The notes beneath the pieces are model-generated. The model had not been told where the DNA came from. It did not search any database and was given only the letters and a program-made list of their open reading frames with translations. From NCBI RefSeq assembly GCF_006937785.1, contig NZ_SJEE01000040.1:1-48225 (forward strand): a DNA stretch of 48,225 nt. The letters run 5' to 3'. Positions 1,038 through 15,553 of this stretch are shown here, in pieces. Position numbers and translations under genes: made by a program. Origin of the DNA: Pseudanabaena sp. UWO311 (GTDB lineage: Bacteria; Cyanobacteriota; Cyanobacteriia; Pseudanabaenales; Pseudanabaenaceae). The first letter of the stretch is position 1. Each line of letters begins with the position of its first letter.

Positions 1038-2585
1038 CTAGTCCCTAATACGCTCAAGCAGATGATCGCCAACTCGTAAAGCATTGGCAATAATCGTTAA
1101 TGTGGGATTGACAGCGGCACTAGAAGGGAAAAAAGAACTATCAACAACATAGAGATTATCAACATCATGGGCGCGGCAATTAACATCTAAAACCGAATCT
1201 TGTGGGTCTTCACCAAAACGGCAAGTTCCATTTTGATGTGCTACCGCCGCGATCGCTAATTTTTTCCGAAAATATAGAGAGAGAGGCAAAATGCGATCGC
1301 CACAGTTAATTGATTTCAATACTTGCGTCCAGCGATCCATTAAGCGATCAAAAGCAATCGTGTTATTTTCGGTGTAACTGATATGTACCGTGCCATTTTT
1401 GACGGTGACGCGATTGTTGCGATCGGGTAAGTCCTCGGCAGTGACAAACCAATCAACTGAGTGCTGAGCCACCTGATCTAGAGCTATCCCTGGAGCAAAA
1501 GCTGGAGCATCAAGGGCAATCATGTCTTTATTCACTTTGCCTAATAATTGGATCAGTCCCATCGGGTAGTTAAAGCCCTCTTCACCCCAATAGTAGTCGA
1601 GGACAGCGAGAGTCTTTTGGAACTCGCTATGATTCGGTTTAGGCGTAATTCCAACGATCGCACCATGTTGATGTTTCATAAAGTTTCGCCCCACTTGGTC
1701 AGAGCTATTAGCCAAGCCATTGGGATGCTTATCATTAGCAGATTTCAACAACAAGACAGCAGAATTAATCGCTCCACAGGCTACCACCACAATATCGCCA
1801 GAGAAATTAAGAATTTGATCATCCAATTTCACTTCAACGCTGGTAATTTCTCTGCCAGATGGACTTGTATGCAGGCGCAGTACCTCCGCCTCGGTGAGCA
1901 AGGTGATGTTATCTTTAGCGATCGCAGGACGTACACAATTTATATCAGAGTCTCCTTTGCCATTGACTAAGCATGGGAATCCATCACAGGTGTTACAGCG
2001 AATGCAAGCTCCTAAGCGACGATTGACTTCATTGAGCTTGATTGCCAAAGGCAGGTTAATCGGATTTAAGCCTTGTTTTACTAAATCATCATGAATTTCT
2101 TGGATGCGCGGCTCATGGGAAACAGGGGGGAATGGGAATGGCGAGTGAGTTGGCGGTTCGGTGGGGTCTTGACCGCGTTGTCCATGTACATCATAGAGTT
2201 TTTCTGCTTCGGTGTAGTAGGGTTCAAAGTCTTGGTATTTCAACATCCATGCTGGTGAAATACCGCCATGATGTTCTACGAGATCGAAGTCCCTTTCCCG
2301 CAAACGGAATAAGGCTCCTCCATAGACTTTAGTGTTACCACCGACCCAGTAGCCAGTACCTGGATGAATCTTACTGCCATCGCGATCGTCAATCCATGTC
2401 TCAGCAGTGTGATAGCGGTCTTTTTTATAGACTTCTACCGTATCCCAATTCTGTTTCTCTTGAGGCAAAAATGCACCTCTTTCTAAGATCAAGATCTTCT
2501 TTCCACTAGAAGCAAGGCGATAAGCTAAGGTTCCACCACCTGCACCAGTTCCGATAATAATGACATCATAATGTTCAGTAGGCAT
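1038..2585 (-). CDS. GMC-family FAD oxidoreductase (paralog 1)
   Basis: This 515-residue flavoenzyme belongs to the glucose-methanol-choline family, which oxidises alcohol, sugar or choline-type substrates. The FAD motif GTGAGGG lies at residues 12-18. A cysteine cluster C194-x2-C197-x2-C200-x4-C205 (CIRCNTCDGFPC) sits mid-protein. The C-terminal catalytic region has AHQNGTCRFG, with the expected His, and VNPTLTI, with the expected Asn. It is closely related to the gene at 5575-7170, but the loop before the catalytic His is about nine residues shorter. An AGGAAAA ribosome site precedes the ATG. It is the last gene of the operon, and the substrate is unknown. Confidence 0.9.
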   Translation of the reverse strand: MPTEHYDVIIIGTGAGGGTLAYRLASSGKKILILERGAFLPQEKQNWDTVEVYKKDRYHTAETWIDDRDGSKIHPGTGYWVGGNTKVYGGALFRLRERDFDLVEHHGGISPAWMLKYQDFEPYYTEAEKLYDVHGQRGQDPTEPPTHSPFPFPPVSHEPRIQEIHDDLVKQGLNPINLPLAIKLNEVNRRLGACIRCNTCDGFPCLVNGKGDSDINCVRPAIAKDNITLLTEAEVLRLHTSPSGREITSVEVKLDDQILNFSGDIVVVACGAINSAVLLLKSANDKHPNGLANSSDQVGRNFMKHQHGAIVGITPKPNHSEFQKTLAVLDYYWGEEGFNYPMGLIQLLGKVNKDMIALDAPAFAPGIALDQVAQHSVDWFVTAEDLPDRNNRVTVKNGTVHISYTENNTIAFDRLMDRWTQVLKSINCGDRILPLSLYFRKKLAIAAVAHQNGTCRFGEDPQDSVLDVNCRAHDVDNLYVVDSSFFPSSAAVNPTLTIIANALRVGDHLLERIRD

Positions 2586-2615: not shown

Positions 2616-3605
2616 TTACTTAGACAAGAATTTTTGGAGAAAAGACATGAACCTTTTAGGTACAGGGGCAGTCGAGTCCTCTACCTTGGCGACCTTAGGT
2701 GGACTTCCCTGCATCCCAGTAATTTCATAGACCTTAAACTCGATTTTGCCTAGGTTGAGATTACCGTTGCGATTGATAATCGCTTTGTCTTTGATTTGGT
2801 TGTAGACTGATTCTGAAACCAACAAATCACTCCCAACCTCTTTATTCGCTGCTTCAATTCGACCGACAGAATTCACAATATCGCCCAAAGGGGTAAGAAC
2901 ATTGGGCTTGCTAGGATCTATCGGAATTAGGACGGCAGCACCATAGTGAATGCCGATGCTCACATTTAGTGGGTTATAAGATAATTTTTTTAAGAAAACA
3001 TTCAATTCAGCTATAGTCTTAAGCAATTCCAATCCTGCCCACACTGCTCTTTCTGCGGCTAAACTACTGTTTTTCTCAAACCCAAATACTGCCATAACTC
3101 TTACGCCCATAACGTTGGGGATCGTGCCGCCATATTGACCCACCACCTTCTGGACTCGATGGAAATAGCGACTCATTATATAGACAATATCGTAGTGGAA
3201 GTTTACCTCATCAAAGTTATTTGCTCCGCGAATTGTGGCAACTAGCAAAGCGACATTGCGATCGCTATTCACAGTACCAGTGGCAAGCTGACCTTCAAGA
3301 ATGTCAATATCCTCATTGTCAATTACCATGCGGCGGATCGAAACATCGCCTGTAACCTTAGTTTGGCAAGCAAGACGGACATGTACCGGGAAATCCAGCT
3401 TTTTTGCTAAAGCTCTTTCAGCGCTAGTTGGAGGACTACAATTTTGCACTCCATCTAAAATCATGATTCGACAAGTAGAACAATAGGCATTCCCACCGCA
3501 TACATGGGTATGCTCGATTCCATTTGCTAACAAAGCCTCTAAAACCGTATCGGATTTGTTGATTTCTATGGAACGCTTATCAGGGAGACAACTAATTTTT
3601 GACAT
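2616..3605 (-). CDS. Ferredoxin-class III cyclase fusion lacking metal-binding Asp residues
   Basis: I start at the second Met (position 3605) because GAGG lies eight bases upstream; an in-frame ATG at 3623 is the alternative. Residues 1-100 are a 2Fe-2S ferredoxin domain with C36-x5-C42-x2-C45 and C80. Residues 115-290 are a class III adenylate/guanylate cyclase fold. The usual first metal Asp (ADIRGF) is Thr124 (ATIRGA), and the second (GDG) is Val168 (GVRVMAVFG). The GDIVN..GR element with Asn245 and Arg249 is retained. Known chemistry needs both Asp residues, so I infer a non-cyclising redox sensor or scaffold. It is the fifth gene of the operon. Confidence 0.85.
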   Translation of the reverse strand: MSKISCLPDKRSIEINKSDTVLEALLANGIEHTHVCGGNAYCSTCRIMILDGVQNCSPPTSAERALAKKLDFPVHVRLACQTKVTGDVSIRRMVIDNEDIDILEGQLATGTVNSDRNVALLVATIRGANNFDEVNFHYDIVYIMSRYFHRVQKVVGQYGGTIPNVMGVRVMAVFGFEKNSSLAAERAVWAGLELLKTIAELNVFLKKLSYNPLNVSIGIHYGAAVLIPIDPSKPNVLTPLGDIVNSVGRIEAANKEVGSDLLVSESVYNQIKDKAIINRNGNLNLGKIEFKVYEITGMQGSPPKVAKVEDSTAPVPKRFMSFLQKFLSK

Positions 3606-3624
3606 AAGTTTAACCTCATTCAAT

Positions 3625-4455
3625 CTAATTCAATAGTTCTTTGCAAAAAGCGATCGCAGATTTTAAAAAGGCGTTAACTTGATCAACACTTGCCTTAGGA
3701 TCACCAAATTGAGAAGCAGTAAGCACTGCCCCAACCCAATGTTCTGTATGCCAAAACCCATCGCCATATAGCGTAGGTAAATTACTACGATCTTCGGGGT
3801 AAGGATAGGGAGTTACATACCAGTAAGGCTCGTTATAGCCGTCATCACCTGGAGATAGTCCGACACCTACGGATTTCTCTTGTCCATTTATTTCATCTGG
3901 GATGGAAATTAACATTGCAATATCGAAATGATGTGGCCAGATGCGAACATTAGATGCCATAGATTCTTGCTGGACTATATCTTGGAGAAGTTGATCTGAG
4001 ATCGCATAATATTCTGCTAAATCTGAAGTTAAATGCTTGAGTTGGAAAGTTTTCCCACGGGCAAGTTCACTTTCAGGGAAGTCGTTAGGTGGATAGGAAA
4101 TTGGGGTGATTAGATCTCCCTCACCGCCCAATCCATTAACGATCGCCTTCATCCAGACAAATGCTTCAGCTAATGTACGATCGCCTAAGGAAAACGAAGA
4201 AATAATTTGATCGCGATCGGTTAAAAAATTTAGAGTTAATGTGATCGGTTCGAGAGCAAGTCGATACGACTTAATAGAATTAATTTCGCGGGTTATGAAT
4301 CCTAGCTGATCGTCCCAGAATAATCCTTTATTACCCGAATCTGCTAGAGCATTTGAGATAGCTGCTAAAGGCTGGATGGCATAATGAAGCTGGATTCTCA
4401 CTTCAGCAAGTTGCTGTAGATCTAATGTAAACGATGGCTTGTCAGGAATATTCAT
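3625..4455 (-). CDS. Conserved protein of unknown function with WPHHFD motif
   Basis: This 276-residue soluble-looking protein has no signal peptide or membrane segment. Conserved-looking blocks are RIWPHHFDIAML (about residues 169-180), GVGLSPGDDGYNEPYWYVTP (about 195-214) and FWHTEHWVGAVL (about 235-246). They look like a metal- or ligand-binding pocket rich in His, Asp, Trp and Tyr. I recall similar unnamed bacterial proteins but know no biochemical role. Its stop codon is one base short of the first possible start of the cyclase-like gene, so the two are very probably co-translated. No ribosome site is obvious before its ATG. Confidence 0.7.
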   Translation of the reverse strand: MNIPDKPSFTLDLQQLAEVRIQLHYAIQPLAAISNALADSGNKGLFWDDQLGFITREINSIKSYRLALEPITLTLNFLTDRDQIISSFSLGDRTLAEAFVWMKAIVNGLGGEGDLITPISYPPNDFPESELARGKTFQLKHLTSDLAEYYAISDQLLQDIVQQESMASNVRIWPHHFDIAMLISIPDEINGQEKSVGVGLSPGDDGYNEPYWYVTPYPYPEDRSNLPTLYGDGFWHTEHWVGAVLTASQFGDPKASVDQVNAFLKSAIAFCKELLN

Positions 4456-4490: not shown

Positions 4491-5573
4491 TTATTTTTCG
4501 ATAATCCGCAGGGCATGACCGTCGGGATCTCTGACTAAAAATCCACTCTTAAACCCAAAAGAACGGGAAGGGATTTCAATTACATCGGGCGAGATGAAAA
4601 TTGTACGGGAACTTCGCAGTTTTTGCGCGATCGCTTTAGCATCATTGACAACCAAAGTAGTCTGCCAATACAGCAAATCATTGGTTCGTGCGTCAGAGGG
4701 GTAAGGCTTGCCATCGCTTGGAGACAAGTAATCGAGAAACTCAATCCCTAAACCTGATGGTGCTTTTAATCCACTAATGCGTAACTTGGCTCCAAACACA
4801 TTATTGAGATGCTCCTGTTCGGTGCCGAAGTTTTCACTTTCGCCCGCCAGTTTGAGTCCTAGAACATCGCGATAAAACTTCAAGCTAGCATCAGTATTGC
4901 TAACAACGATCGCCGTATGGTCAATTCCTAAAAAGACTGACTGAGAATTCTCCTGCCATTTCGGATCGCCTTTACCTTTAGGGAAATAAATGATTTCTAA
5001 ATTATGTCCGTCAGGATCTTTGAAGTAGAAAGCGCGAATTCCTGCGGCGGCTTTATTCGTATCAGGAATCCTTTGCGGTGCTGTCGAAGCATGTTGCACC
5101 TTAAATTTGCGAAGAGTTTCATAGGCTTTATCCATGTCGCTGACTGCGATCGCAATATGTTGAAACCAACGATCGTTACTGCGCGAATCGACAGGAATCG
5201 GTCTGCCCTTCGGCGTGAGAAATTCCGTTAATTCGAGAATCTCTCCGCCTAGTCGCATTTTTACTACTCTCAAATGCACACCAAATAAACCTTGGAGGCG
5301 TTCATATTCAGAGCCTAAGACCTCGACATCAGATATTTTTTGAAAGGATAAAACCTCAGAGTAAAACTGAATGGCTTTGTCCATATCTGAAACTGTAATA
5401 CCCACAGAGTCAACCGCAGTTAAAGTAACTGGCTGAGCTTGCGCGATCGCCCAAGTGTTCGCATAGGGCGATCGCGCTGATAAAGGCTTTAAGATTGCCG
5501 CCTCTTGGGCAAAGACTCCTAATACTAAAGAGAAGGCAATCAGAAAGACTCTTTTTTGGAATTTAATAGCCAT
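4491..5573 (-). CDS. Exported protein with two VOC (glyoxalase-fold) domains
   Basis: The ATG at 5573 is preferred over the upstream ATG at 5627, because GAGG precedes it and it lies one base after the GMC stop codon. The 360-residue product begins with a signal peptide (KRVFLIAFSLVLGVFA, with AIAQAQ as a possible cleavage site). Two repeats of the vicinal-oxygen-chelate fold follow, at about 50-190 and 205-360, each with an F/Y-xx-DPDGH-xL-x-I ending. VOC proteins are glyoxalases, dioxygenases or binding proteins. Which one applies cannot be read from the sequence. It is the third operon gene, with a periplasmic location inferred. Confidence 0.85.
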   Translation of the reverse strand: MAIKFQKRVFLIAFSLVLGVFAQEAAILKPLSARSPYANTWAIAQAQPVTLTAVDSVGITVSDMDKAIQFYSEVLSFQKISDVEVLGSEYERLQGLFGVHLRVVKMRLGGEILELTEFLTPKGRPIPVDSRSNDRWFQHIAIAVSDMDKAYETLRKFKVQHASTAPQRIPDTNKAAAGIRAFYFKDPDGHNLEIIYFPKGKGDPKWQENSQSVFLGIDHTAIVVSNTDASLKFYRDVLGLKLAGESENFGTEQEHLNNVFGAKLRISGLKAPSGLGIEFLDYLSPSDGKPYPSDARTNDLLYWQTTLVVNDAKAIAQKLRSSRTIFISPDVIEIPSRSFGFKSGFLVRDPDGHALRIIEK

Positions 5574-5574
5574 A

Positions 5575-7170
5575 CTATGCCTCAAGTCTTTTGATGAGAT
5601 GTTCGGCAACCCGCAAAGCATTAGCAATGATAGTCAAAGTCGGATTGACGGCTCCACTCGAGCAGAAAAAACTGCCATCAACAACATAGAGATTGTCAAT
5701 ATCGTGGGTTTGGCAATTAAGGTTCAATACAGAGGTTTGGGGATCTTCGCCAAAGCGACAAGTCCCAACTTGATGTCCGACTCCTTGCAAAGGAAGTTTC
5801 CCAGTGAAATAGTTAGTGGAACCTTTGACAAAATAACTATCATGAGACAGAATGCTCTCGCCACAATCAATTGATTTAAGAATCTCAATCCACTTCTGTT
5901 CCAATCGGGCATATGGTTCGGTATTATTTTCGGTATAGTCCAAAATAATGCGATCGCCATCAACACGAACACGATTGTTGGATTCGGGTAAATCTTCTAC
6001 AGTCAGCCACCAATCTACAGAGTGACTTGCCACTTCTTCAGGAGTGCGAGGAGCGTAGGCAGCAGTATTGCCTTCGATCATTTCCTTATTGACTTTACCA
6101 AGGGTTTGAATTTGTCCCATCGGGTAGTCGTAACCATCTTCGCCCCAATAGAAATCGTTGATCGATAGAGTCTTTTGGAATTTGGTGGAATTTGGCTCCT
6201 TAGTTACCCCAATAATGGAACCGAGCACATGTTTCATAAAATTGCGCCCTACCAAATCAGAGCTATTTGCCAAACCATTCGGGTGTTGGTCATTATGCGA
6301 TCGCAGCATGATCGTAGATGAGTTCACCGCTCCACAGGAAAGAACGACTATTCCACCCGAAAAGTACTTAATCTCATTATTGATGCTTACTTCAACCGTA
6401 GTAATCTCCTTGCCAGAATCACTGGTATGGAGTTTCAACACCTTAGCCTCTGTCAATAGCGTCAAATTAGGATGCTGTATTGCTGGCAAAATCCCAGTCA
6501 CCTCAGCATCAGATTTAGCATGAACTAGGCAGGGAAATCCATCACAAGTATTACAGCGAATGCATTCACTTAGATGTTGCTGGACTTCATTTAGCCTAAT
6601 ACCCAGAGGCGTATGATATGGATGTAGTCCCTTCTGTTGGAGTGAGTTGCTAACAGATTCCATTCGCGGCTCATGGCTGACCGCAGGATAAAAATAATCA
6701 TGACTACGAGGCGGTTCAGTCGGATCGATGCCCTGATTGCCATGAACTTGATATAGCTTTTCAGCTTCAGTGTAGTAGGGTTCAAAGTCTCGATATTTTA
6801 GGGGCCAAGCTGGAGAGAGCCCATCCTTATGCTGATAGGCTTCAAAATCTTGCTCGCGCAGCCGAAATAAAGCGGCTCCATAAATCTTGGTATTCCCGCC
6901 AACAGAGTAGCTCATGCCAGGATGTAATTCGTTGCCATCGCGATCGTACCAAACCTCATCATTATGATAGCGGTTGCTCTTGAACGCTACTTTAGTATCC
7001 CAGTTTTCCTTCTCTCTAGGCATAAAAGAGCCGCGCTCTAGCACCAAGATGCTTTTACCAGTAGGAGCTAGCTTGTAAGCGAGAGTTCCTCCTGCTGCAC
7101 CAGTACCGATAATAATGATGTCATAGTGTTCAGTAGCCAAAAGTTCCGTAGACAAGTTATCTATTGACAT
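5575..7170 (-). CDS. GMC-family FAD oxidoreductase (paralog 2)
   Basis: The start at 7170 has an AGGAAAAAAG ribosome site and leaves 10 bp after the SDR gene; an upstream in-frame codon at 7215 would overlap it. The 531-residue product has the FAD motif GTGAAGG (22-28), the cysteine cluster C203-x2-C206-x2-C209-x4-C214, a full-length substrate loop, then GHQVGTCRFG and VNPTLTI with the catalytic His and Asn. It is strongly similar along its whole length to the GMC gene at the operon end, which points to an old duplication. It oxidises an unidentified alcohol or sugar-type substrate. It probably works with the SDR encoded just upstream. Confidence 0.9.
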   Translation of the reverse strand: MSIDNLSTELLATEHYDIIIIGTGAAGGTLAYKLAPTGKSILVLERGSFMPREKENWDTKVAFKSNRYHNDEVWYDRDGNELHPGMSYSVGGNTKIYGAALFRLREQDFEAYQHKDGLSPAWPLKYRDFEPYYTEAEKLYQVHGNQGIDPTEPPRSHDYFYPAVSHEPRMESVSNSLQQKGLHPYHTPLGIRLNEVQQHLSECIRCNTCDGFPCLVHAKSDAEVTGILPAIQHPNLTLLTEAKVLKLHTSDSGKEITTVEVSINNEIKYFSGGIVVLSCGAVNSSTIMLRSHNDQHPNGLANSSDLVGRNFMKHVLGSIIGVTKEPNSTKFQKTLSINDFYWGEDGYDYPMGQIQTLGKVNKEMIEGNTAAYAPRTPEEVASHSVDWWLTVEDLPESNNRVRVDGDRIILDYTENNTEPYARLEQKWIEILKSIDCGESILSHDSYFVKGSTNYFTGKLPLQGVGHQVGTCRFGEDPQTSVLNLNCQTHDIDNLYVVDGSFFCSSGAVNPTLTIIANALRVAEHLIKRLEA

Positions 7171-7180
7171 TGCTTTTTTC

Positions 7181-7987
7181 CTACTGCTCTTGATAGTTCC
7201 AAAGCAAACCACCATCTACAACAATGGTGGAACCTGTAATGTATCGAGACTCGTCTGAAGCTAAAAAAGTCACCACAGAAGCGACATCTTCAGGTTGTCC
7301 CAAACGACCGAGAGGAATATTTTTTAGCAAAGGCTCCAATTTAGAAGGATCGTTGAGAAGTGCCTTGTTAATTGGAGTTTCGATCGCACCAGGAGCGACA
7401 TTATTGATAGTGATGCCAAGTGCGCCAAGTTCAACTGAGAGATTGCGTGTCATCATCTTCAAAGCGCCTTTGCTGGCACAGTAAGCCGTGAAATGGGGAA
7501 ATGGCAATTCTTCGTGAACGGAGCTAATGTTAATAATGCGTCCATTGCGCTTGCCTTCGCTAATTTGATGTTTAACGAAAGATTGGGTGGCAAAGAAAAC
7601 GCCCTTAAAATTGATATTCATTACCGCTTCAAAGTCTTTTTCGGTAACATCCCAGAAATCTGCATGTTTTTCAATCCCTGCATTGTTGACTAGAATGTCT
7701 AGAGTACCAAAATGCTTGATGCTCTCATCGATTAATTTGCGAACGTCATCAACCATTCCCAAATCAGCACCAATACTATAGCCGCGATCGTTGTCACAGA
7801 AGCCCTCAGCCATCATGCAATCTCCACCAGTTGCTTTGATCGCATTTAAAGTTTCTTCAGCACCTTGAGGATTAGAGCGATAGTTGACCACAACCTTAGC
7901 GCCTTCCTTTGCCAATCGAATCGCAATACCTTGACCGATGCCGCCACTGCTTCCAGTAACTAGGGCAACTTTTCCATCTAGTTTCAT
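7181..7987 (-). CDS. Short-chain dehydrogenase/reductase, glucose 1-dehydrogenase-like
   Basis: This 268-residue classical SDR uses NAD(P) for carbonyl/alcohol interconversion. It has TGSSGGIG (11-18) for the dinucleotide, NNAG (101-104), the catalytic Ser near 155, and Y169-x3-K173 (YCASK). The C-terminus ([15 protein letters not shown]) is typical of the glucose 1-dehydrogenase-like group. A stretch around residues 62-72 ([10 protein letters not shown]) looks like an insertion compared with usual relatives. It is the first gene of the operon, with about 180 bp of upstream DNA for the promoter. The true substrate is not known. Confidence 0.9.
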
Positions 7988-8172
7988 AAATTTTCACCGC
8001 AGTAAAATTTGCAATTATTTTGGAGAGAAATCCTCGACGGGCTAAGACCATTGAGAAAACATTGCTTTATTCTGCTTGAGTAGTTACTAAATAGAGTTAG
8101 CGAGATATAAAAAGTATATTGAAATTAGCTGATACTTCGGGAATATTTTTTAAGTGATCGCTCAGCAAATCC
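7988..8172. promoter_or_regulatory. Presumed promoter region of the SDR-GMC operon
   Basis: This 185-bp AT-rich spacer separates the first operon gene from the PIN toxin end, and both genes read on the minus strand. It must contain the operon promoter unless transcription comes through from the toxin. No clear -35/-10 pair could be assigned by eye, and no hairpin is visible after the toxin gene, so read-through is possible. Confidence 0.3.
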
Positions 8173-8595
8173 TCATTTTAGGATTCTATTGCTTAAAGTA
8201 AACTGCTCAACAGATTGTATTTGTATTGAGCGAAATGGATTAAGAACCAATAGATCTTTATCTCCACTGATGATCAAATCAGCTTTACCGCTAAGAGATA
8301 ACTCTAAAATCTTGTCATCTTTCGGATCACGGCACTCCTTGACAACATCTACTACTTTAATCAATATTCCCCTATCTATGAAGCCATCTAAAAATTCTTC
8401 TCTCTCTTCATCTGTGATATATTTTCTGAATTTTGCACGACTGAGAACTTCGTCAAGCTCTTCTAGTAGTTCTAATGAGAACAAGATGTTGCCGTTTTGG
8501 AGTGCATACCTAATTGCTAAGTCAGGCTTACTACCCTCAAATAGCACTGAGCTAATAATCACGTTGGTATCAAAAACGTATCGCACTTTATTCAC
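8173..8595 (-). CDS. PIN-domain toxin of a toxin-antitoxin pair
   Basis: This 140-residue PIN-domain protein belongs to the COG1569-like family. It has the N-terminal VFDTNVIISSVLF strand with the first metal Asp, the mid-protein DPKDDKILELSL segment with acidic residues, and ADLIISGDKDLL with the last acidic pair. PIN toxins are Mg/Mn-dependent RNases. The gene overlaps the upstream antitoxin gene by 8 bp, the usual arrangement for coupled translation. All expected acidic residues look present, so it is probably active. Confidence 0.85.
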   Translation of the reverse strand: MNKVRYVFDTNVIISSVLFEGSKPDLAIRYALQNGNILFSLELLEELDEVLSRAKFRKYITDEEREEFLDGFIDRGILIKVVDVVKECRDPKDDKILELSLSGKADLIISGDKDLLVLNPFRSIQIQSVEQFTLSNRILK

Positions 8596-8812
8596 TTAAC
8601 AAATTATTCAAAATTTCTGGAGTTAAGCCTCTAGCTTGTGCTTTACGACTGATATCACTCATTACAGCCTCTAGTGGTCGGCGTTTTCTGGCAAACTCTC
8701 TCAGTCTCAAGCTGAGCAGAGCATCAAGCTTTTGTCGATCAGCAAATATAGCCGACTCATAAATTTTTGCTGATTCTGCATCAACACAGATTTTAATTTC
8801 TTTAACGTCCAT
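8588..8812 (-). CDS. Small antitoxin partner of the PIN toxin
   Basis: This 74-residue charged protein lies directly before, and overlaps, the PIN toxin. It starts MDVKEIKICVDAESAKIYE and continues with a helical, Arg/Leu-rich middle (LLSLRLREFARKRRPLEAV). That is consistent with a small antitoxin that binds DNA and covers the toxin. No named antitoxin family was recognised with certainty, and the assignment rests mainly on position and size. Confidence 0.7.
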   Translation of the reverse strand: MDVKEIKICVDAESAKIYESAIFADRQKLDALLSLRLREFARKRRPLEAVMSDISRKAQARGLTPEILNNLLSE

Positions 8813-9205
8813 AGCTTTTACATACCCAAGAATGTTTCCAAACTATCTAAAATCCCATTATCGCTGAAATCACCATCGATCGCACTTAATAATTATTTGT
8901 CTTTGCGATCGCCGACAACTTTCTGGAACTCCACTAACGAAGTAAACCATTTTTGCTTACCTAATCTCGGCTAGAAACAGACAACCTTAAGGAGCATATC
9001 GGTTTTGGTATAACGTCATCTGCATCAGTGGACAGCGTTGCAAAATAAGCATCGTCTTATCGGTTTGAGCCGTTCTGTTGCATGCATTAGTTAGACATAT
9101 GCAGTGGAGCAATCTAAATCATTGAAGCTATTTTAGGGTTAACTTCAATATCGACTTTAAACCTAGTATTAATTGGATATTTTACCAAATCTAGACTGAT
9201 TCTGA
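8813..9205. other. Gene-free spacer with a possible coding remnant
   Basis: No gene is supported in these ~390 bp. On the minus strand at about 8899-8973 an open stretch reads RLGKQKWFTSLVEFQKVVG and ends at a stop. It is closed upstream by another stop, so it may be the decayed end of an old gene. The promoter for the antitoxin-toxin pair should lie near 8813-8870. Confidence 0.35.
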
Positions 9206-9748
9206 CTAATGTATACGAAAAGGAACAACAAAACTACCTCCACCGTTTCCGTAAGCATAAAGATTAAGTTCAACAAGTTGCAAGCCTGTACCTTGTTTTG
9301 GCGCACCATTAAAAATTATGTCTAACCTAACTATAGTGTCAGGATAAAGATACGCTTCGGCACTACGCAAAGATGTAGAACTTCCAAGTGTTGCAGATGA
9401 TGCAGTAACTTGTTGACCATCTTTATCAAGAAATATCGTATTACCCCTATATGAGTCATAAGTGCGAATAGCCAGCTTTCTTCGTGAGCTTTGCAAGTTT
9501 TTCACATAGAAACTGCATCGAAGTTTTCTTGAAAACTCTTGAAGAACGTTACATCCAAGCATCTCAAATGCAAATCCCTTTTCAACTACTGGGGGAATTT
9601 GATCTTTTGGCACGATATTTTGTGCCAAAAGACTAGGCCTATTCAAAGATTCACCAAGACCAACTGAAATACTTGGACTAAATAAGCTGCTGAGTGACTG
9701 GGTATTAGTGCCAAAACTTAAGATGAGTAACAAAGCACTTTCAAACAT
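9206..9748 (-). CDS. Exported beta-rich protein of unknown function
   Basis: The 180-residue product has a short hydrophobic N-terminus (ESALLLILSF) and a possible processing site at SLLAQN near residue 43. Its C-terminal ~120 residues (FAFEMLGCNVLQEFSRKLRC, TYDSYRGNTIFLDKDGQ, SATLG) match a beta-sandwich pattern often seen at the ends of cyanobacterial kinases and caspase-like proteins, though I know no name for it. Two cysteines (GCNV and LRCSF) are typical of that pattern. The adjacent gene on the same strand also encodes a membrane-anchored extracytoplasmic protein. Confidence 0.65.
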   Translation of the reverse strand: MFESALLLILSFGTNTQSLSSLFSPSISVGLGESLNRPSLLAQNIVPKDQIPPVVEKGFAFEMLGCNVLQEFSRKLRCSFYVKNLQSSRRKLAIRTYDSYRGNTIFLDKDGQQVTASSATLGSSTSLRSAEAYLYPDTIVRLDIIFNGAPKQGTGLQLVELNLYAYGNGGGSFVVPFRIH

Positions 9749-9943
9749 AATAGAGGTTCCAATGACTACTTATGGGGAAAATATTCGAATTGAGTAAGAC
9801 TAAACGAACTACTGTGAGGTGTCAACTTAAGGCGAGACAGCTTGCACAGAAAGGATTTAGGCATTTAGTTTGTAAAACCGATTTTACAGTCATATCAGTT
9901 AGACGTTCGTTGCCCAAAAGTGTTCCGCCTTAAGCTGCATCCT

Positions 9944-14328: not shown

Positions 14329-15042
14329 CTATTTAACAGTACCGATTTGTGGACAAGTTTTATTCGTAAAGTCACATTTAGATAGGTAGGAAGCTTGCCA
14401 GCTATAGGGGATGGATAACAAATCTCTTGCACCAGTCATGCTCTGCCCTAGAAACAGGATAGTCGCAAAAATATTCAGTAAAATATGCACAGTTCGCCAG
14501 CGATTTTTGCGGTCTTGGTAAATATCCTGCACGATCGCCATTGAAAAAATCATCAATAAAGCTGCGGCTATTCCATAGTAGTAGTGAGAGAAAAACCATT
14601 CTTTATCGCGACGAAAGACCTCTGGTTGAGCACCTAAGATAATTAATCCCACTCCAGATAGAGTCGCAAAAATACCACGCCATAACTTGCTTGTAGCCCG
14701 ATAGAGAAATACCATCGAAGCCGTAGAAGCAATAAACAAGATCACCACAAAGGCAACCCTTGATGGCTCTTTGGTTAAAATATCTCGTTCGATCATCTTA
14801 GAAAAAATTGGGAAAGCCATGCCCAAAAGTGCTACTCCCACAACCGAGCCGCTTAGCCAGTAACCGATCGCTAAATGCTCGGAGCCAACACTTGGAGGAA
14901 TCTTACTCTTCTCTCCATTTGTGGCTTGCAGACGACGTTGACGAGTTAGCCAAGAACGATTGATGACGATACCAATCAATGGGAATACAAATGCAATCGC
15001 GATCGCAGGATGTAGTAAAGCTAGAGTATCTTTTAGATCCAT
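14329..15042 (-). CDS. DUF4079 family polytopic membrane protein
   Basis: This 237-residue protein has an N-terminal LLHPAIAIAFVFPLIGIV helix with a conserved His, four or five further hydrophobic helices, and the EWFFSHYYYGIAAALLMIF segment. That set matches the DUF4079 proteins common in cyanobacteria. Several His residues in helices (LHPA, FSHYYYG, RTVHILLN) could bind heme, as in ferric-reductase-like membrane domains; this is inference. It lies between a small exported protein and a membrane-anchored FAD/2Fe-2S reductase on the same strand. That grouping suggests a membrane electron-transfer unit. Confidence 0.8.
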   Translation of the reverse strand: MDLKDTLALLHPAIAIAFVFPLIGIVINRSWLTRQRRLQATNGEKSKIPPSVGSEHLAIGYWLSGSVVGVALLGMAFPIFSKMIERDILTKEPSRVAFVVILFIASTASMVFLYRATSKLWRGIFATLSGVGLIILGAQPEVFRRDKEWFFSHYYYGIAAALLMIFSMAIVQDIYQDRKNRWRTVHILLNIFATILFLGQSMTGARDLLSIPYSWQASYLSKCDFTNKTCPQIGTVK

Positions 15043-15086
15043 ATGATTGGTCGGTGCAAATAATTTTAGTAAAAAACAACCAATTT

Positions 15087-15113
15087 GCCCCCTCTCAATG
15101 TCAGAGCGGGGGC
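15087..15113 (-). terminator. Possible terminator after the small exported gene
   Basis: On the minus strand, GCCCCCGCTCT pairs with GAGAGGGGGC (one bulged base) around a short loop and is followed by a T-rich run near 15070. It lies 38 bp after the exported-protein gene and upstream of the DUF4079 start. Confidence 0.55.
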
Positions 15114-15151
15114 TGAGAGTGAGTGTAAATATTCGCTCTACGAAATATCAA

Positions 15152-15553
15152 TTATTTGACTTCTTTAGCAGGGAATGTAACCACCCGACCTTTTTTCACA
15201 GCGACTACTACATCATAGGTAGCACAGTAAGAGAATGTAACATCGTTAGCTTTATTGTAGAGACTAACTACCATGCCAGCTCCACCTGGCTGCACTCCCA
15301 AAGGCATAAGATCGCCGAAGAACCAGCGACGTAACTGATCGCCTCCACCAATCTGTCCTTTGTTTTTGGTAATGATTTCAATATGCTTCTCTGCCTCTGT
15401 CTTTTCCGCTTGGGCTGTTTTAGAAGGCATTGACTCAGCGATCGCTACGGATTGAAATTGAGGAGAGAATGAGCGCACTGCTACATCACCAACGCCGATA
15501 AAACCTGCTAACGCGACACTTGTAAGTAGAGGGCTGAGGGACTTGATATTCAT
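15152..15553 (-). CDS. Small exported protein of unknown function
   Basis: This 133-residue protein has an N-terminal hydrophobic segment (about residues 8-22, LLTSVALAGFIGVGDVA) and an Ala-rich stretch (VAIAES, TAQAEK) fitting a signal peptide. The mature part includes GGGDQLRRWFFGDLMP and a single cysteine in FSYCATYD. No family was recognised. It sits first in a minus-strand group with the DUF4079 protein and the membrane reductase. It may therefore be a periplasmic partner, though a hairpin after it allows separate transcription. Confidence 0.65.
   Translation of the reverse strand: MNIKSLSPLLTSVALAGFIGVGDVAVRSFSPQFQSVAIAESMPSKTAQAEKTEAEKHIEIITKNKGQIGGGDQLRRWFFGDLMPLGVQPGGAGMVVSLYNKANDVTFSYCATYDVVVAVKKGRVVTFPAKEVK

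Follow-up and report, generated by a model that had tools for sequence, protein, structure and literature searches.

What does a cell do with a nucleotide cyclase domain that has lost the residues needed to bind catalytic metal? The question is raised by a gene of Pseudanabaena sp. UWO311 in which a ferredoxin precedes a class III cyclase domain lacking both metal-binding aspartates. The stretch analysed here (the window) comprises 48,225 nucleotides, one contig of a 5.2 Mb genome, and the gene lies near its beginning. We asked whether the protein can still make cAMP or cGMP, how old the loss is, and what the cyclase part may be doing.

A ferredoxin fused to a cyclase domain without metal ligands

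The relevant features of the gene, all on the reverse strand, are as follows.

2616..3605, reverse strand: ferredoxin-pseudocyclase gene, 329 aa, ATG start (ORF listing, Pfam, alignment to relatives)
3351..3581, reverse strand: Fer2 domain, residues 9-85, adrenodoxin/NqrF-like, Cys 36, 42, 45 and 80 (Pfam; phmmer to E. coli Fdx 1i7h; NCBIfam nqrF and fdx_isc below cut-off; dN/dS 0.029)
2760..3263, reverse strand: cyclase homology domain of class III, residues 115-282, without the metal Asp (Pfam; AlphaFold2 mean pLDDT 86; VIA Z 25.8 to Cya2; dN/dS 0.064)
3234..3236, reverse strand: T124 codon, replacing the metal-1 Asp (sequence, residue table, phmmer to Cya2)
3198..3215, reverse strand: FDEVNF, residues 131-136, directly after the former metal-1 loop, holding D132 and F136 (column conservation, 90-row count)
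3102..3104, reverse strand: V168 codon, replacing the metal-2 Asp (sequence, residue table, phmmer to Cya2)
2625..2657, reverse strand: predicted C-terminal helix, residues 317-327, overlapping the tail motif RFMSFLQKF; pLDDT below 50 in the window model (AlphaFold2 model, tail pattern)

The ORF listing gives a longer frame (2616-3623, TTG start), but relatives align instead from the ATG at 3605 (MSKISC...). We therefore take the ATG as the start, and the interval 2616-3605 assigned in the original prediction is right. The closest named relatives carrying the same gene, among the best 80 of 94 loci, are Pseudanabaena species. Pfam recognizes both parts of the window protein above its cut-offs (Fer2, E 2.5e-11; Guanylate_cyc, E 3.5e-9). 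All four ferredoxin cysteines are there, as had been proposed (C36, C42, C45 and C80), and are spaced CX5CX2CX34C, in agreement with CX5CX2C...C, the spacing rule for adrenodoxin-type [2Fe-2S] ferredoxins; rules of this kind separate adrenodoxin-like from plant-type ferredoxins. The spacing is shared with E. coli Fdx (1i7h, phmmer 1e-9), putidaredoxin and the ferredoxin domain of NqrF, from all of which the window ferredoxin differs in being fused to a cyclase fold. Because of this spacing and of the best matches (E. coli Fdx, with the NqrF and isc models below cut-off), we consider the ferredoxin to be adrenodoxin-like and not of the plant type. Judged by its sequence, then, the window protein joins an adrenodoxin-like [2Fe-2S] ferredoxin to a cyclase domain of class III.

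The nearest solved class III cyclase is Cya2 (2w01; phmmer E 4.3e-14). In the alignment to it, T124 (context ...LVATIRGANNF...) stands opposite the Asp of 'DLRGF' and V168 (context ...NVMGVRVMAVFG...) opposite the Asp of 'MGDGILVLFG'. The residue table agrees, and the predicted loss of both metal-binding aspartates is thereby confirmed. N245 and R249 are kept (context ...LGDIVNSVGR...), so that among the hallmarks of an active class III cyclase the window protein retains the fold and the transition-state Asn/Arg pair and lacks the two metal Asp. It also differs from Cya2 at the purine-Lys position, which is Asn here, as it is in 10 of the 15 intact cyanobacterial ferredoxin-cyclases.

An AlphaFold2 model of the window protein, built from 46 sequences (mean pLDDT 86), aligns with Cya2 over 191 residues at Z 25.8 and rmsd 2.1 (Foldseek E 2.2e-14). 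We also modelled L094, a more strongly decayed member and one of two copies in which Pfam sees no cyclase at E 0.01 (the other being the G277 copy, in L075); this model has a pLDDT of 89 and matches Cya2 at Z 25.1 and rmsd 2.4. In both members for which a model was built, the cyclase fold is predicted to be retained. Since both model alignments (A2 and A3, each of 46 rows: the window protein plus 45 of the best 80 loci) contain intact relatives, fold retention is partly drawn from intact cyclases, and the models are support and not proof.

Distribution of the fusion and age of the aspartate loss

At E < 1e-60 the full fusion occurs in 16 of 38 genomes searched in the order, comprising 8 of 26 in the genus of the window and 8 of 12 in the others. 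Across the phylum, where up to five candidates per genome were scored in 386 genomes at E 1e-40, 17 genomes carry the fusion at this threshold or better; nine of them encode a copy without the aspartates (a dead copy) and eight an intact copy only, with its catalytic residues. One of the nine (G155) and one genome from the order search (G006) each encode a dead and an intact fusion. Named genomes outside cyanobacteria that carry the fusion belong to Chloroflexota, Bacteroidota (Hymenobacter, Roseivirga), Thermodesulfobacteriota, Zetaproteobacteria, Gallionella-like betaproteobacteria, Spirochaetota and others. One of the two phylum searches and the search that returned the 94 loci used the same alignment (A1), which holds 15 rows of the dead clade described below. 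From the best 80 of these loci, proteins were extracted for 76 (L084-L159), the remaining four (L160-L163) matching over short parts only.

The residue table holds 109 extracted copies and the tree 90 distinct rows, 13 near-duplicates and six partial proteins (L133, L137, L143, L156, L158 and L159) having been omitted. Of these six, L158 stops short of the site and the other five have both Asp. L156, L159 and L137 have no readable set of ferredoxin cysteines in the extracted part, probably owing to frame or contig limits.

In the 90-row tree, both Asp are absent from all 25 rows of one cyanobacterial clade, the window protein included, and present in all 15 other cyanobacterial rows and in 49 of the 50 rows from other phyla. 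This dead clade is nested beside the 15 intact cyanobacterial rows with an SH-aLRT support of 99; it keeps 100/98 support when 12 diagnostic columns are removed (44 rows), and reaches an SH-aLRT of 94 on the ferredoxin domain alone. It is accordingly a pseudoenzyme clade, monophyletic and without catalytic metal residues in any of its 25 members, and the four ferredoxin cysteines are intact in every one of them. The sole exception among the 50 non-cyanobacterial rows is an acidobacterial protein (L148) with T and T at the metal positions and a C-terminal globin domain following its cyclase, which sits on a long branch in another part of the tree and therefore looks like a separate loss of the aspartates.

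On the sequences compared, the loss is old and common to the whole cyanobacterial clade. All eight Pseudanabaena fusion carriers have T plus V, M or L at the metal positions; orthologues with the same operon and both Asp, which by the original prediction would have spoken against it, were not found among these eight. Since the loss is common to a cyanobacterial group, the cyclase fold appears to be kept for a job other than messenger synthesis. Intact ferredoxin-cyclases share the order Fer2 then cyclase and are 30-47% identical to the window protein, but differ from it in carrying both Asp, with Asn and Arg kept, and in their tails, which are mostly short outside cyanobacteria.

Across the clade the metal-1 Asp is replaced by T, S, A, G, R, N or K and the metal-2 Asp by V, M, L, G, S, N, W, K, T, H or F, and the residue table reveals no common alternative metal ligand at the two positions. 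The Asn/Arg pair, which had been described as remaining, does so in the window protein and in 11 of the 25 clade rows in all (L009-L019), but Asn and/or Arg are gone from the other 14. Lys255, which we take to be the triphosphate-binding Lys, is Gln in six of the seven other Pseudanabaena copies. With both Asp absent clade-wide and further catalytic positions decayed, the sequences support well the proposal that the protein, as a homodimer, would no longer make cAMP or cGMP. An active cyclase using other metal ligands, or no metal, would be compatible with the window protein, in which the fold and both Asn and Arg persist, but the residues replacing the aspartates share no common ligand, and we regard this reading as very improbable.

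Constraint, newly fixed residues and the C-terminal tail

Pairwise comparison of seven Pseudanabaena copies, in pairs that are not independent, gives a mean dN/dS of 0.064 in the cyclase domain, 0.029 in Fer2 and 0.060 overall. The set consists of the window protein and copies 89-96% identical to it, dS to the eighth copy being saturated. The value of 0.064 indicates that strong purifying selection has maintained the dead cyclase domain after the loss, and it does so for these seven copies only. Over longer times, mean column conservation in the cyclase domain is 0.54 in 16 dead representatives versus 0.73 in 10 intact cyanobacterial rows, while that of Fer2 is equal (0.71 and 0.72), so that in the long run the dead cyclase part is under looser constraint than an active one. 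Fourteen positions that are fixed (at least 0.9) in the intact rows drop below 0.6 in the dead representatives, and eight of them (122, 124, 129, 168, 169, 242, 245 and 255) are catalytic or adjacent to catalytic positions. Y138, D139, R146, G160, F174 and G241 are still fixed in the dead clade.

The clade has also acquired residues of its own. D132, F136 and Y210 occur in all 25 dead rows, versus none of the 15 intact cyanobacterial and none of the 50 other rows; Q106 is found in 24 of 25 dead rows versus 13 of 65 others, and P303 in 24 of 25 versus 8 of 65. Because D132 and F136 directly follow the former metal-1 loop, the rim of the old active site seems to have been rewritten and not merely eroded.

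A tail of 30-59 residues follows the cyclase domain in all 40 cyanobacterial tree rows, dead and intact, and 42 of the 50 rows from other phyla have at most 12 residues there. A basic amphipathic pattern (RFMSFLQKF in the window protein) is present in 21 of the 25 dead-clade tails versus 0.11% of shuffled tails, a comparison in which the pattern was written after the tails had been seen and each near-identical Pseudanabaena copy counts as a tail of its own. The remaining four dead rows (L050, L051, L097 and L102) have a Trp-rich variant. Such a tail may bind a membrane or a partner.

Several non-cyanobacterial ferredoxin-cyclases carry additional C-terminal domains, namely Rieske (L112, L115), NAD_binding_1 (L127) and haem peroxidase (PF00141; L132, L157). 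The presence of such domains after the cyclase in some intact relatives shows that the ferredoxin-cyclase module is redox-linked, whatever its output.

Genomic neighbourhood and possible functions

The genes around the fusion are arranged in the window as follows.

1038..2585, reverse strand: GMC oxidoreductase 1 (GMC1), downstream neighbour (Pfam; co-occurrence)
3625..4455, reverse strand: conserved protein of 276 aa with no match in Pfam or NCBIfam, upstream neighbour (Pfam, NCBIfam, genus search)
4491..5627, reverse strand: VOC/glyoxalase-like protein, two matched stretches (Pfam)
5575..7215, reverse strand: GMC oxidoreductase 2 (GMC2) (Pfam)
7181..7987, reverse strand: SDR dehydrogenase, glucose-1-dehydrogenase-like (Pfam, NCBIfam)
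14329-15553 in the window, and 6326-9803 in locus L072: DUF4079 protein and small secreted-looking protein, further from the fusion in the window

The gene order in Pseudanabaena is SDR, (GMC2), VOC, 276-aa protein, fusion, (GMC1) and a small secreted-looking protein. Among the eight carriers of this genus an intact GMC1 lies beside the fusion in five, GMC2 lies upstream in three, and the VOC and 276-aa genes are present in seven. GMC1 and GMC2 are 62% identical, have a Cys-rich stretch in common (CIRCNTCDGFPCLV), and score far under the cut-off against choline, cholesterol and mycofactocin-linked GMC models.

The original prediction had cast the protein as a possible scaffold for the flanking flavoenzymes, and the wider comparison does not support this. 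In G019 and G020 no GMC gene was found in the 17-18 kb around the fusion, and G023 has fragments of GMC1 only. Conversely, the 276-aa protein occurs in 8 of the 26 genomes of the genus, which are seven fusion carriers and G021, and in G021 the operon stands without the fusion: one locus (L165) contains SDR, GMC2, VOC, the 276-aa gene and a contig-cut GMC1, a second (L164) contains SDR, the 276-aa gene and a contig-cut GMC1, and in neither does a ferredoxin-cyclase gene separate the last two. No full fusion was found in the G021 genome (best match 4.4e-14). The stretches examined around fusion copies from outside the genus yielded no GMC1 homologue at E 1e-8. Since each occurs without the other, the link between fusion and flavoenzymes is weak, and we reject a dedicated partnership with the flanking GMC operon as a general explanation. 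The fusion might still act in trans with the GMC paralogues (61-63%) that are encoded elsewhere in the G019 and G020 genomes.

Genes for a membrane protein of the DUF4079 family and for a small protein that looks secreted lie close to the fusion in three neighbourhoods of Pseudanabaena (G009, G011 and G020). In the distant G117 they adjoin it, the only case in which we found a neighbour conserved outside Pseudanabaena. No homologues of these two were detected at E 1e-8 in the rest of the 109 loci, some of which are duplicates and many short or ending early. An old linkage to the fusion is possible, and the indication is a weak one.

The reading that we favour, and to which we give about an even chance of being correct, is that of a conserved ferredoxin-pseudocyclase, a redox protein in which the cyclase fold would serve for dimerisation or as a platform for docking. 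The redox-controlled binding protein of the original prediction would fit this picture. The [2Fe-2S] domain would be reduced or oxidised; the pseudo-cyclase domains, still dimerising, would form a redox-responsive platform; and the paired domains would transmit or present the redox state, with D132 and F136 beside the old metal-1 loop and with Y210. The C-terminal amphipathic helix would engage a membrane or a partner. In this way the protein would work without making cAMP or cGMP, redox state being passed by contact.

The main rival to a contact-based redox platform draws on the mammalian case. The C2 domain of mammalian adenylyl cyclase and other metal-free cyclase domains have no metal Asp and keep Asn and Arg, a state resembled by the 11 clade rows in which N245 and R249 persist. 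These residues are the half of the active site that a metal-free partner would supply, and a C2-like pseudocyclase might lend them to a metal-bearing cyclase domain, giving one redox-regulated active site. Candidate partners exist in the 22 other Guanylate_cyc matches of the window genome and in the intact fusions that G006 and G155 encode in addition to dead ones. Mammalian C2, however, depends on a C1 domain of its own polypeptide, and no such partner is known for the dead clade; the window genome shows no second ferredoxin-cyclase (the next match, at E 4.6e-15, covers the cyclase part only), the pair is incomplete in the other 14 rows, and Lys255 has given way to Gln in most of the Pseudanabaena copies. 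We consider such a half-site rather unlikely.

We find it similarly doubtful that the protein is simply a modified ferredoxin, an electron carrier for a metabolic enzyme (a GMC enzyme in Pseudanabaena, for example) with the cyclase as a stabilising or dimerising appendage. Fer2 is indeed the most constrained part by both dN/dS and column conservation, and an intact GMC1 lies directly downstream in five of the eight Pseudanabaena carriers; yet the operon genes of G021 stand without the fusion, the fusions of G019 and G020 lack a nearby GMC, and in close copies constraint also acts on the cyclase domain, which has acquired invariant residues. The degenerate catalytic positions might also be taken for those of a decaying pseudogene, a recent mutation or a sequencing error, but both Asp are missing throughout the clade (25/25 rows), the listed fusion matches contain no stops and dN/dS is about 0.06; this leaves the explanation as a whole with a negligible chance and rules out recent mutation or error.

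Returning to the redox platform, we put forward a more specific version tentatively, as the less probable outcome: the whole cyanobacterial lineage may have become a nucleotide-independent redox switch, with a dimeric pseudocyclase, a new conserved surface by the old metal site, a tail that binds a membrane or partner, and signalling by contact instead of by second messenger.

The order Fer2 plus cyclase is already visible in Pfam terms, and cyclase domains that have lost activity are known from other contexts. A survey (PMC4886424) mentions two cyclase-like proteins of mycobacteria in which just one metal Asp is present, and does not settle what they do. Within the open-access literature, subscription papers lying mostly outside the scope of the search, we found no publication on the ferredoxin-cyclase fusion or on the dead clade.

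Class III cyclase domains are usually taken as makers of cAMP or cGMP, and here a whole clade would be mis-annotated. The dead clade constitutes a natural pseudocyclase series, from nearly intact members that keep Asn and Arg to largely rewritten ones, and because this graded series stands beside intact paralogues in G006 and G155, a non-catalytic role of the fold is directly testable. Signalling may be coupled to redox state across the broad ferredoxin-cyclase family, in which some proteins also carry a Rieske, peroxidase, globin or NAD-binding domain.
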